From Nissabacter sp. SGAir0207 (GTDB lineage Bacteria > Pseudomonadota > Gammaproteobacteria > Enterobacterales > Enterobacteriaceae): a DNA stretch of 64,000 nt. This document shows, piece by piece, positions 6,408-30,399 of the stretch. The notes under the pieces were generated by a model. That model ran no database searches and was not told where the DNA came from. It saw only the letters and a list, made by a program, of their open reading frames with translations. The stretch spans positions 1,364,001 to 1,428,000 of the forward strand of contig NZ_CP028035.1 of assembly GCF_005491205.1 (NCBI RefSeq), given 5' to 3'. The position numbers were made by a program, and so were the translations under genes. Within the stretch, counting starts at the first letter, position 1. Every line of letters starts with the position of its first letter.

Positions 6408-6525
6408 TGCTGCATCTGGCGGGGCAGGCACGCCGTGGCAGGTGCCGGGAATAGCAGCAGTTGCCATGCCCCGTCATAAAAAAGGTTGCTATTAGGGGGC
6501 GGCTATGAGTAAATGAGTCTCGGCC

Positions 6526-6696
6526 TGTGGAACAGACCTATTTATGCACGACATCCTGAGTAAAGTAGTTTCAATCTAAGCGTTATCGTTGATAGCCCTT
6601 CTGTGACGAATTTCCTTCTGAGTGCCTCATAAGTAATGACTGAAAGCCGGCTATATTTCGCCTTCGGCGTCTCATTTTATTTTTAAGGAATTTATC
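6526..6696 (+). promoter_or_regulatory. CspA-type cold-shock 5' leader
   Basis: TGTGGAACAGACC (6526-6538) matches the cold-box end of the E. coli cspA leader (TGACGTACAGACC) at 10 of 13 positions. GTTATCGTTGATA (6582-6594) followed by a CCCTT stretch matches the internal conserved part of that leader. The distance from the cold box to the ATG (about 170 bases) fits the known ~159-base cspA leader, which refolds at low temperature to expose the start. AAGGAA precedes the ATG. Confidence 0.75.
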
Positions 6697-6906
6697 ATGA
6701 CTATGATGAAAGGTCAGGTTAAGTGGTTCAACGAGTCTAAAGGCTTCGGTTTCATTACTCCGGCTGACGGCAGCAAAGACGTGTTCGTACACTTCTCCGC
6801 TATCCAAGGCAACGGCTTCAAGACCCTGGCTGAAGGCCAGAACGTACAGTTCTCCATCGAGAACGGTGCTAAAGGTCCGTCTGCGGCTAACGTTACCGCT
6901 ATCTAA
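6697..6906 (+). CDS. CspA-family cold-shock protein
   Basis: A 69-residue single OB-fold protein. RNP1 (KGFGFITP) and RNP2 (VFVHFSAI) single-strand nucleic-acid-binding motifs are intact. The N-terminal two thirds match CspC ([15 protein letters not shown]), while the C-terminus ([15 protein letters not shown]) is more CspA/CspE-like, so I give no specific symbol. The long cspA-like leader argues for a truly cold-inducible paralogue. It acts as an RNA chaperone and antiterminator. A strong terminator follows at 6946-6971. Confidence 0.95.
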
Positions 6907-6945
6907 GCTGACTGCCGTGCCGCCTTATGCGGCGCCGCACCAGTT

Positions 6946-6971
6946 AAAAAACCCGCTTCGGCGGGTTTTTT
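6946..6971 (+). terminator. Intrinsic terminator of the cold-shock gene
   Basis: AAAAAACCCGC-TTCG-GCGGGTTTTTT: perfect stem with a UUCG tetraloop and a T-run. Confidence 0.9.
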
Positions 6972-6996
6972 TGTTTTTGTCGCCCGGAAAAAGGGC

Positions 6997-27778: not shown

Positions 27779-27934
27779 AGGTCTCATCATGTTATGGCAG
27801 CAAACCGCTGCGCCAATAAAAGTGACTCTTTCAAGCTAGAGCCTAATCGAGAGTTTGCAAGTATGCTGCCGGGAATAGCCTGAAAACGCGGGCGTTTCAG
27901 GGAGAAAGGGCACGTTTTGTCAATAAGTGTAAAG

Positions 27935-28320
27935 GTGGGATCGGGCATGGCGGATGCCCGTGGGCGCGCAGGTTTTCAGGCATTGCGGGTGCTTGTGGCC
28001 TTGCTTAGGCCGGAGCAGGGTTTCGGTTGTTTGGGTTCCTTTGTCTACCTGAGCCTCGGAGCCTCAACCGAGCAGGGCCTGCCGGCGCGCCGGCCCTGCA
28101 CCCGCGCGCTTTGGGGTGAAGTGGCTAATCATTGCCCGCTCTCGCGGGTGACCCTCGCTGCGTCTCCGGGCTTCCGGGCCGGCCCAGACGCGCTCCCGGC
28201 GCGGCTGGCCCTTTCGCGGGCGTCCTGCCCGCTCACCCGGCCCTGCGACTCCACTCGGCAATGATTTAACGCCCCCACCTCCTCTGCGCGCTGTAAGTAT
28301 GTGAGGAAATAGTTGGGGAG
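27935..28320 (-). repeat. Structured repeat, copy 1 (inverted)
   Basis: Reads leftwards. Contains in order: a conserved end (CCCCAACTATTTCCTCAC), half of a long-range stem (28258-28266), an internal hairpin GCGGGC/GCCCGC (28227-28232 with 28216-28221), a CGCGC/GCGCG hairpin, a CCCGC-GAGA-GCGGG hairpin, the second half of the long-range stem (28127-28135), then a 42-base core (28061-28102) identical in all three copies and holding a GCAGGGCC/GGCCCTGC hairpin, and a tail with more hairpins. Differences from copy 2 keep pairing. No coding potential or transposase. Confidence 0.7.
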
Positions 28321-28452
28321 CTTTTTTATTGGAAGGTGGAATGGATTGGCTTTGGAGCTGATTGTATTTTTGTCTAAGGCATACCTTAAACACTACATAC
28401 CCGACCGCATAAAACCCATTACCCTTTAAACAAAAATAATCCCCCCATATTC

Positions 28453-28770
28453 CGCCCCAACTATTTCCTCACATAGCCGAGGATTTGCAGAGGAGGTGGG
28501 GGCGTTAATTATTGCCGACGGAGGATTCCGGGCCGGGTGAGCGCACAGGGATGTGCGCGAAAGTGGCAGTCGCGCTGGGAGCGCGTCTGCCGCGGCCCGA
28601 CAGGCCGGAAGCTGACGGAGGGTACCCGCGGTAGCGGGCAATAATTAGCCGGGGCACCCCAACGCGCGCGGGTGCAGGGCCGGCGCGCCGGCAGGCCCTG
28701 CTCGGTTGAGGCGCAGGCGCACAGGTAGACAAATGAATCCGAACAACCGAAACCCTTCTCCGGCCCCAGC
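28453..28770 (+). repeat. Structured repeat, copy 2
   Basis: Reads rightwards; roughly 80% identical by eye to the complement of copy 1. The long-range stem is AATTATTGC (28507-28515) with GCAATAATT (28638-28646); the internal hairpin is GCGCAC/GTGCGC (28541-28546 with 28553-28558); the identical core is 28671-28712. Its tail diverges after about 28765. Open frames across it are low-complexity and not genes. Confidence 0.7.
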
Positions 28771-28842
28771 GGTGCCAAAGATAACCACGAAAGCCAAAGC
28801 AGAAAAAGACAGTGCCAAACCGAAGGTTAAACACACCCGCGT

Positions 28843-29015
28843 GGTGCAGGGCCGGCGCGCCGGCAGGCCCTGCTCGGTTGAGGCTCGGGAGCACAGGTAG
28901 ACGAATGAATCCGAACAACCGAAACCAGTCTCCGGCCTGATGAGGCCACAGGCACCCCCGAGTGCCCGAAACTAGCGAGGCCCAGGCACCCAGTGCCTAA
29001 AACTGGTGCTGCCCG
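28843..29015 (+). repeat. Structured repeat, copy 3 (3' part only)
   Basis: Begins within the 42-base core (28843-28884) and keeps the GCAGGGCC hairpin and the tail. The tail matches that of copy 1 (GGCC-loop-GGCC, then two GGCAC/GTGCC-type hairpins). It ends a few bases from the stop of the next channel gene (29020), so that operon would transcribe into it. Confidence 0.6.
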
Positions 29016-29019
29016 GGCC

Positions 29020-30399
29020 TCAGCCAGGCCCCCCATACCCGCCCCCCAGCGCGGCAATCAACTGCACGCTGGCGACCAGTTGCTCGCCCTGCAACGACAG
29101 CACGCTCTGCTGCTGCGACAGGCGCGTCGCCTCGGTGGTGGCGACATCCAGATAGTCGATCATCCCGGCTTGGTACTGGTTGTAGGTCACGCGCGCGGAC
29201 TCCGCGGCGGCGTCGGCGGCGCGGCGCTGGGTGGCCAGTTCGCCCTCCAGCGTGTTCAGCTTGACCAGATAGTTCTCCACCTCCTCGAAGGCGGTCAGCA
29301 CGCTCTGGCGGTAGCTGGCGACGCTGGCGTCATAGCTGGCGCGCGCCTGCTCAACACTGGCGCGGGTCGCGCCGAAGTCCAGCAGGGTGCCGCTCAACTC
29401 TGGGCCAAGCGACCAGACGCGGTTCGGCGCGGAGATCAAATTATGCAGCGTCGAACTGCTGTAGCCGCCGCTGGCGCTCAGCGTCAGATCCGGGTAGTAA
29501 CCGGCAATCGCCACCCCCACCGCGGCGTTGGCGGCGGCCATGCTGCGCTCGGCGTAGGCGATGTCCGGGCGGCGCTGCAACAGCTGCGAGGGCAGGGTAG
29601 CGGGAATGGCCGGCAGGGTGGCGGTCAGCGGCGCAACGGCCAGCGTGAAGGTGGCCGGTGGGCGGCCCATCAGCACCGCCACCGCGTGCTCCAGCTGGGC
29701 GCGCTGCCACTGCAAATCCTGCGCCGAGGCGCGGGCGCTCTCCAGCTGGGTCTGCGCCTGCGACAGGGTGCCGCGTGACTCACTGCCAGCGCGGTACTTG
29801 TTCTCAATCACCGTCAGGTAACGCTCATAGGCCGCCACGCTGCGTTGGTAGAGCGCAATCTGCTGATCCAAAATGCGGATCTGGAAATAGTCCTGCGCCA
29901 GCTCCGACTGGGCGCTCAGGGTAATGTTCGCCAGCTCGGCGGCGCTGGCATCGGCGGTGGCGCTCTCCTCCTCCAGTTGGCGGCGCAGCTTGCCCCACAG
30001 ATCCAGCTCCCAGCTGGTCCCCACCTGTGCCTGATGGCTGTTGCCGGGCGAGCCACCGGAAGTGGCGCTGCGGGTACTGCTCGCGGTGCCGGTCACGGTC
30101 GGGAAGAAACTGGCGCGCGCGCCAGAGACCAGCGCCTGTGCCTGACGGTACTGCGCCGCATACTGCGCCACGTTCTGGTTGGAGATGCGCACTTGCGCCA
30201 ACAGGCTGGAGAGCACCGGATCATGGTAACCGGCCCACCAGTCGCCCTTGGCGGCGGCGTCCTGCGGCGTGGCCTGCGTCCAGCCCTTCGCCTCCTTGAA
30301 CTGGGCGGTCATCGGGGCGGGCGGGCGCTGGTAGTCCGGGCCGACGGTACAGCCCGCCAGCAGCAGCGCCAGAAAAAGGGGAGCGAAATTCTTCGTCAT
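29020..30399 (-). CDS. OprM/NodT-family outer-membrane efflux lipoprotein
   Basis: A 459-residue channel lipoprotein: signal and lipobox LALLLAGC, mature start TVGPDYQRP, two OEP repeats (QALVSGARASFFPTVTGTAS; QRRPDIAYAERSMAAANAAVG) and a C-terminus ending in ALGGGYGG. Fourth gene of the MdtABC-type operon, 5 bases after the MdtC-like stop. In E. coli MdtABC uses TolC; carrying a dedicated channel resembles the MuxABC-OpmB arrangement of Pseudomonas. Confidence 0.92.
   Translation of the reverse strand: MTKNFAPLFLALLLAGCTVGPDYQRPPAPMTAQFKEAKGWTQATPQDAAAKGDWWAGYHDPVLSSLLAQVRISNQNVAQYAAQYRQAQALVSGARASFFPTVTGTASSTRSATSGGSPGNSHQAQVGTSWELDLWGKLRRQLEEESATADASAAELANITLSAQSELAQDYFQIRILDQQIALYQRSVAAYERYLTVIENKYRAGSESRGTLSQAQTQLESARASAQDLQWQRAQLEHAVAVLMGRPPATFTLAVAPLTATLPAIPATLPSQLLQRRPDIAYAERSMAAANAAVGVAIAGYYPDLTLSASGGYSSSTLHNLISAPNRVWSLGPELSGTLLDFGATRASVEQARASYDASVASYRQSVLTAFEEVENYLVKLNTLEGELATQRRAADAAAESARVTYNQYQAGMIDYLDVATTEATRLSQQQSVLSLQGEQLVASVQLIAALGGGYGGPG

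Follow-up and report, generated by a model that had tools for sequence, protein, structure and literature searches.

An element of two divergent arms between efflux genes

The window, i.e., the whole 64,000-nucleotide stretch of DNA that was analysed, carries an element between two codirectional genes, an emrA-like ORF and an outer-membrane efflux ORF. It extends from approximately 27941 to 29001, the limits of the sequence common to other copies in its own genome (G000), and comprises two inverted structured arms of approximately 140 nt with a spacer between them; the outer hairpin is present once more, as an incomplete third copy. An earlier note on this DNA had placed the feature at 27935-29015, a range that includes these limits, and had described copies 1 and 2 as inverted, copy 3 as retaining only the 3' hairpins, and a 42-base core as present in all three. 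Sequence and repeat search confirm these points: there are three inverted matches (27996-28149 with 28624-28777, 86%; 28151-28225 with 28549-28623, 75%; 28224-28275 with 28498-28549, 71%), and the core GGTGCAGGGCCGG...GGTTGAGGC occurs at 28671-28712 and 28843-28884, with copy 1 containing its reverse complement (28061-28102). Copy 2 (28507-28646) is a plus-strand arm, copy 1 (28127-28266) a minus-strand arm, and the two diverge from the central spacer. Each arm has, in order, an outer stem (AATYATTGC/GCAATRATT), a stem formed by GGGC/GCCC and CGGG/CCCG, hairpins H1, H2, and H3, the GC-rich hairpin H4, and a tail. The long-range stems proposed in the same note, AATCATTGC/GCAATGATT and AATTATTGC/GCAATAATT, are exact once copy 1 is taken in its minus-strand orientation; the internal hairpins GCGGGC/GCCCGC and GCGCAC/GTGCGC are exact as well, with compensated changes.

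On the left, the minus-strand outer tail (27941-28006) contains short repeats matching the tails of other own-genome copies. The left H4 (GCAGGGCC/GGCCCTGC, 28072-28099, minus strand) lies within the 42-base core and corresponds to helix 7 of the covariation analysis. The left arm core (28127-28266), which is of the L type, holds the outer stem, two hairpins with GGA loops, and H3, and is matched by our covariance model R1 at G000:C1:1392127-1392266. Upstream of it is a conserved block (28267-28318, minus strand) with 22- and 21-bp inverted repeats common to the right arm; the corresponding block upstream of the right arm (28455-28506, plus strand) was recognised from the repeat search and the printed upstream sequences. 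The central spacer between the divergent arms (28319-28454) is AT-richer by eye and is matched by the spacers of other own pairs.

The right arm core (28507-28646, R type), in which 28507-28514 pairs with 28639-28646 as the outer stem, is matched by R1 at G000:C1:1392507-1392646. All features on this side are on the plus strand. H1 (28541-28558) displays the loop AGGGAU (28547-28552) and includes ACAGGGAUGU, to be compared with the SELEX consensus RUACARGGAUGU quoted in a passage of PMC7652899. H2 (28563-28593) has the loop UGGGA (28576-28580), H3 (28625-28638, CCCGC/GCGGG) is helix 6 of the covariation analysis, and the right H4 (28674-28701) again falls within the 42-base core. A link (28771-28842) leads to copy 3 (28843-28937), which consists of a second H4 and the next hairpin and matches 28671-28765 at 94%; link and H4 are also found in tandem at the own locus at 2681.3-2681.6 kb. 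The outer-membrane efflux ORF has its stop end at 29020, 19 bp beyond the right outer tail (28938-29001).

The block of approximately 50 nt next to each arm core (CTATTTCCTYACATA...TTTGCAGAGGAGGTGGGGGC) is largely conserved upstream of the 26 arms inspected, and may contain a promoter or a binding site.

Dispersed copies in Chimaeribacter

R1 was built from 37 Chimaeribacter arm cores and used at E ≤ 0.01, with 150 first-look candidates scored per genome and rough E-values. Searching the own and related genomes with this model uncovered dispersed copies: 16 arms in G000 and 40, 46, and 26 matches in three congeners, some of which are contig-end fragments (G001-G003 belong to the same genus as G000). 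The 16 own arms make up 8 elements, i.e., five divergent pairs, one pair joined by another arm, a lone arm, and a wide pair with its arms 1.4 kb apart and ORFs for a TacA-like antitoxin and an acetyltransferase in between. By our reading of the ORFs, 7 of these 8 elements lie between convergent genes, the window copy being the exception, and tRNA-Lys genes adjoin one of the seven. Nine neighbouring ORFs were checked against Pfam, the others being judged from their sequence. A 41-base core is found in 31 stretches, and the named contigs all belong to Chimaeribacter arupi, C. coloradensis, or C. californicus; the host is therefore most likely a Chimaeribacter (Yersiniaceae). C. arupi has an element at the same site as the window copy. 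The whole element has no DNA match in the phage and plasmid collections, and neither has a 100-base piece of it in E. coli genomes. The element is very probably a dispersed, non-autonomous repeat whose commonest form here is a doublet of divergent arms, with cores approximately 240 nt apart.

Some further features of these copies were seen in passing. All 16 own arms lie within G000:C1 1.245-2.683 Mb, i.e., in 1.44 Mb of a 3.93-Mb contig and a 5.03-Mb genome. The antitoxin (PF08681) and the GNAT acetyltransferase between the divergent arms of the wide pair (L092:5505-6308; G000:C1 approximately 1245.5-1246.3 kb) mean that this pair encloses a toxin-antitoxin-like module. Truncated arms are present in L095:14297-14546 and in the L049 and L065 spacers, some of them cut near the apex of H1 and followed by a fresh upstream block.

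Among known repeats, the ERIC2 primer sequence matches nowhere in the window when up to 3 mismatches are allowed, and nothing supported a P4-satellite immunity region, which was also considered. ERIC, Yersinia palindromic, and RU repeats resemble the element as small intergenic repeats of Enterobacterales in the passages available from PMC2229807 and PMC2759123, the RU and Yersinia palindromes being compared by description only.

Folding, covariation, and loop conservation

The core of copy 2 (28507-28646) folds with a z-score of -5.0 (0 of 200 shuffles as good) and that of copy 1 (28127-28266) with one of -2.6 (2 of 200). The antisense strands fold about as well (-4.9 and -2.7, respectively), so that the strand cannot be told from folding energy alone. 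Two other cuts are no more stable than shuffled sequence (28571-28720, z 0.3; 28130-28275 on the minus strand, z -0.65).

For covariation, 52 distinct complete Chimaeribacter arms were kept from 73 matches at the loci used. Among these arms, 98.2% of 2483 pair cells are formed and 16 of 48 pairs show two-sided changes, counts that are not independent events since the arms are related paralogues. The covariation score is 0.222 versus 0.084 in shuffles, and pairing falls to 29-40% when the register is slid along the alignment. Four of the five measures exceed all 500 shuffles, the fifth being that of further pair types, for which 478 of 500 shuffles are as high. On those four measures, the selection on secondary structure that the earlier note had suggested is supported. 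For other genera, 34 matches at 32 chosen loci gave 31 distinct arms, whose alignment was made with R1 and is therefore biased towards it; in this R1-fitted alignment, 89.8% of 1188 cells are paired and 36 of 40 pairs have two-sided changes, the predicted pair 41-212 fails, and helix 6 stands at 83%.

GGA is present in the H1 loop of 49 of the 52 Chimaeribacter arms, with CGA in the remaining three, and in 31/31 arms of other genera; for the H2 loop, the numbers are 52/52 and 29/31. The loop GGA is thus kept in other genera though the stems beneath it differ. The motif CA(N)GGAYG occurs 0.94 times per arm on the sense strand in Chimaeribacter and 1.42 times in other genera (0.09 and 0.07 in shuffles) versus 0 and 0.03 times on the antisense strand, and plain GGA is only slightly above shuffles (5.62 versus 4.56 per arm core in Chimaeribacter; 5.32 versus 4.46 in the others). 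The exact SELEX core ACARGGAUGU was found in 17 of 50 distinct Chimaeribacter arm cores and in 7 of the 31 arms from other genera. The CsrB-type repeat CAGGA(U/A/C)G, which like the SELEX consensus comes from the passages of PMC7652899, is present in 18 of the 50.

The non-Watson-Crick cells bear on the strand. G-U outnumbers A-C by 54 to 15 in Chimaeribacter, where 30 of the 54 fall in a single helix and may go back to one early event, and 8 of the 15 are in H4, where the alignment was read as off register in one variant. In other genera the ratio is 37 to 14, and other mismatches occupy 30 and 107 cells in the two sets, respectively. The excess of G-U over A-C fits an RNA read from the sense strand.

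Relationship to the TwoAYGGAY motif

At the gathering threshold, no Rfam family matches the element, a cspA element being the only match in the window. With a relaxed threshold, the left arm matches TwoAYGGAY (RF01731) at 28179-28235 with an E-value of 0.17 and 26.4 bits, as against a gathering score of 43 bits; the best congener match has 42.8 bits. The family was found in 22 of 60 genomes of relatives at E ≤ 1, and over the cut-off in 7 of the 60, versus 0 of 14 controls. A class-wide draw at the stricter E ≤ 0.01, which misses the own copies, gave matches in 12 of 143 genomes, 7 of them over the cut-off and four with 6-18 copies. Among 20 other genomes chosen for a search with R1, 9 of the 15 RF01731-positive and 0 of the 5 RF01731-negative ones have matches, many at the same places. 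R1 matches the RF01731 places at full length in G006, G017, G019, G023, G044, and G046, and some of the copies over the RF01731 cut-off in G023, G006, and G046 are also found by R1. It misses the RF01731-positive G005, G020, G028, G034, G037, and G047, so that the Chimaeribacter arms are not equally close to all TwoAYGGAY branches.

TwoAYGGAY and the arms both have two adjacent GGA-loop hairpins inside an outer stem, and RF01731 matches fall on the same elements in the congeners and in several other genera. The own loops are not strictly AYGGAY (AGGGAU or AGGAC in H1, YGGGA in H2). Through chained alignments, the arms are a homologous variant of TwoAYGGAY, not a strict member. The element is thus in part one that has already been described, by its homology to an Rfam family below whose cut-off the own copies stay.

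Rfam types TwoAYGGAY as Cis-reg and places it in the same clan as CsrB (CL00106). The passage of PMC2864571 that lists the motif (in 2010) gives it as probably an RNA and probably not cis-regulatory, and a role in CsrA binding or as a decoy was proposed from motif matches in a passage of PMC4333381. The passages found in the open-licence literature include no published test of TwoAYGGAY function. Two features of the copies studied here, the dispersed divergent doublets and the likeness within a genome, have no counterpart in those passages.

Arrangement and history of the doublet

Our pairing count merged at least 420 match rows, corresponding to at least 367 arms in 33 genomes. Among the matches listed, arms at most 1 kb apart are divergent in 55 cases, tandem in 10, and convergent in 0, in 14 genomes; a partial subset of these data has 47 divergent, 4 tandem, and 0 convergent. 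Many arms have no neighbour within 1 kb, and contig breaks hide some partners; none of the 25 R1 matches in G006 has a close partner. The divergent layout of close arms is apparently new, the passages of open-licence literature that came up containing no description of dispersed divergent TwoAYGGAY doublets.

In a tree, the Chimaeribacter arms split into two deep types, L and R. Of 14 aligned loci with two opposed arms, 12 combine one L and one R arm, the exceptions being L053 and L092, which are both L/L and widely spaced. This regular combination suggests that the doublet probably predates the species. Own R arms are 97-100% identical and own L arms 95-100%, each forming a tree group with 100/100 support. 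Arms at the same site in congeners are 77-83% identical (three shared sites, including that of the window, and one type-mismatched comparison). High identity within the genome and low identity at the same site mean either that the copies have been homogenised within genomes or that arms have been replaced at the same sites.

Species differ in which sites are occupied, by gain or loss. At one site, C. californicus and C. coloradensis have the doublet, remnants are present at a contig end in G001, and G000 is unoccupied. The L096 flank is found at length only in G002, without an element match in approximately 1.5 kb beyond, and the far flank is also unaligned; the L098 flank is found in G001-G003, without an element match in the approximately 1.5 kb fetched beyond. 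The outer ends are inverted; at the C. californicus copy, inspection by eye shows a 24-bp repeat.

A possible role as CsrA decoy, and alternatives

The explanation of the whole that we favour, at a little short of even odds, is a non-autonomous doublet with arms that serve as RNA decoys for CsrA. Transcription of an arm would come from a neighbouring gene by read-through, or else start at a promoter as yet unrecognised. With its two adjacent hairpins, whose loops show GGA like high-affinity CsrA sites, the arm RNA would bind a CsrA dimer, and the bound CsrA would be drawn off other mRNAs. The divergent layout would provide one sense-oriented arm whichever way transcription runs, and the doublet, which has been gained or lost one site at a time and whose copies are kept alike within the own genome, would move as a unit. 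A structured RNA and a non-autonomous mobile element, both offered by the earlier note, are supported as parts of this one picture, in which we infer transcription and movement.

The step by which an arm would bind and titrate CsrA is itself tentative, at somewhat under even odds. The own genome has csrA, and CsrB/RsmZ sRNAs are like the arms in their GGA hairpin loops and in belonging to the same Rfam clan as TwoAYGGAY, for which decoy action has been proposed (in the passage of PMC4333381). Unlike E. coli CsrB, an sRNA with 22 GGA according to a passage of PMC7652899, the arm cores average 5.6 GGA, are multi-copy, and are known here from sequence alone; the CsrB family (RF00018) does not match the element even when E-values up to 10 are admitted. 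CsrB itself is over the cut-off at C1:760256 in the own genome, away from the element, and in 10 of the 10 genomes searched, so that an additional decoy is not obviously needed. Also counting against CsrA are the arm stems, which are long and GC-rich, whereas the SELEX hairpins are short-stemmed, mostly with at most 4 contiguous pairs (PMC7652899, same passages). A consensus search of 27780-29100 found 0 sigma-70-like promoters (0.3 expected), none thus in the spacer. Read-through of one gene would, moreover, also yield antisense RNA to the near arm that might anneal to the sense arm, an argument against a decoy. Also weighing against the favoured explanation are the slight enrichment of plain GGA, the three H1 loops with CGA, the own copies' scores below the RF01731 cut-off, the RF01731-positive genomes that R1 misses, and the many single arms.

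The main rival is a mobile doublet at the DNA level, similar to a REPIN or MITE, in which a transposase or nuclease would read the hairpins as single-stranded DNA and the RNA would have no role; we consider this rather unlikely, if less so than the other alternatives. It would account for an inverted doublet as the repeated unit, for dispersed intergenic copies, and for the differences in occupancy, and REPINs share the first two of these properties in the passages available from PMC3116915. However, the Y1 transposase/RAYT domain PF01797 has 0 matches in the arm-rich G006, G023, and G044, which leaves mobilisation by a RAYT unsupported; its matches in G000-G003 are on contigs without a listed arm, and it was also matched in G046. 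No target-site duplication was recognised by comparison with the unoccupied G000 site, where the flanks have diverged. A REP is also much shorter than an arm core of approximately 140 nt, and the bias for G-U over A-C and the CsrA-type loop motifs on one strand argue for RNA.

Much less probable is an element acting at 3' ends, which like BIMEs would lie between convergent genes and there either terminate transcription in both directions or stabilise mRNA 3' ends. The location of 7 of the 8 own elements and the strength of the GC-rich hairpins fit such a function, as do 5 terminator-like sites in 27780-29100, where 1.9 (sd 1.4) are expected. Yet none of the five is at the left or right H4, the conservation of the GGA loops would be left unexplained, and the genes on either side of the window copy are codirectional. 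An attenuator serving only the two efflux operons, as suggested by the earlier note, would agree with the position of the window copy and with the same-site element in C. arupi; this highly improbable reading is largely refuted by dispersal, the same element being present at seven other own loci beside unrelated genes and at many sites elsewhere.

That the arms encode small proteins is the least credible reading: a 55-codon ORF with AGG upstream (28733-28900) begins past copy 2 and finishes within copy 3, but it has no Pfam, NCBIfam, or PHROG match, and a homologue search at E ≤ 0.1, with 1 candidate, found none. Arm cores differ in length by single bases (138-142), and any one frame is open in 24 of 52 arms at most. 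Three ORFs compared with the same three collections gave nothing useful, with one NCBIfam match (E 0.14, 11.2 bits versus a cut-off of 820), in agreement with the earlier view that no recognisable protein is encoded.

Returning to the decoy, relatives of TwoAYGGAY are copy-rich and dispersed in several genera, and opposed arms at most 1 kb apart are always back to back, which narrows the hypotheses to a decoy RNA or a mobile doublet. Should the arms indeed bind CsrA, the number of repeat copies could set the activity of a global regulator. A wider, and on present grounds doubtful, extension is that TwoAYGGAY sequences across Gammaproteobacteria might be the working parts of widespread mobile divergent doublets that spread CsrA decoys. 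Were this true, the copy number of a selfish element would titrate a global regulator, and the doublet layout would secure a sense arm in any insertion orientation. Chimaeribacter is a genus in which a direct test of the arms is easy.

Two other RNA families were encountered in these searches. AaHKsRNA22 (RF02902), for which no paper was found in the open-licence literature, has near-threshold matches at L115:1391-1485 and L116:2745-2841, that in L115 being directly downstream of a TwoAYGGAY core, and is just under the cut-off beside TwoAYGGAY in one G044 locus. The cspA element of the window is a cspA thermoregulator RNA (RF01766) at 6519-6974, matched with 212 bits.
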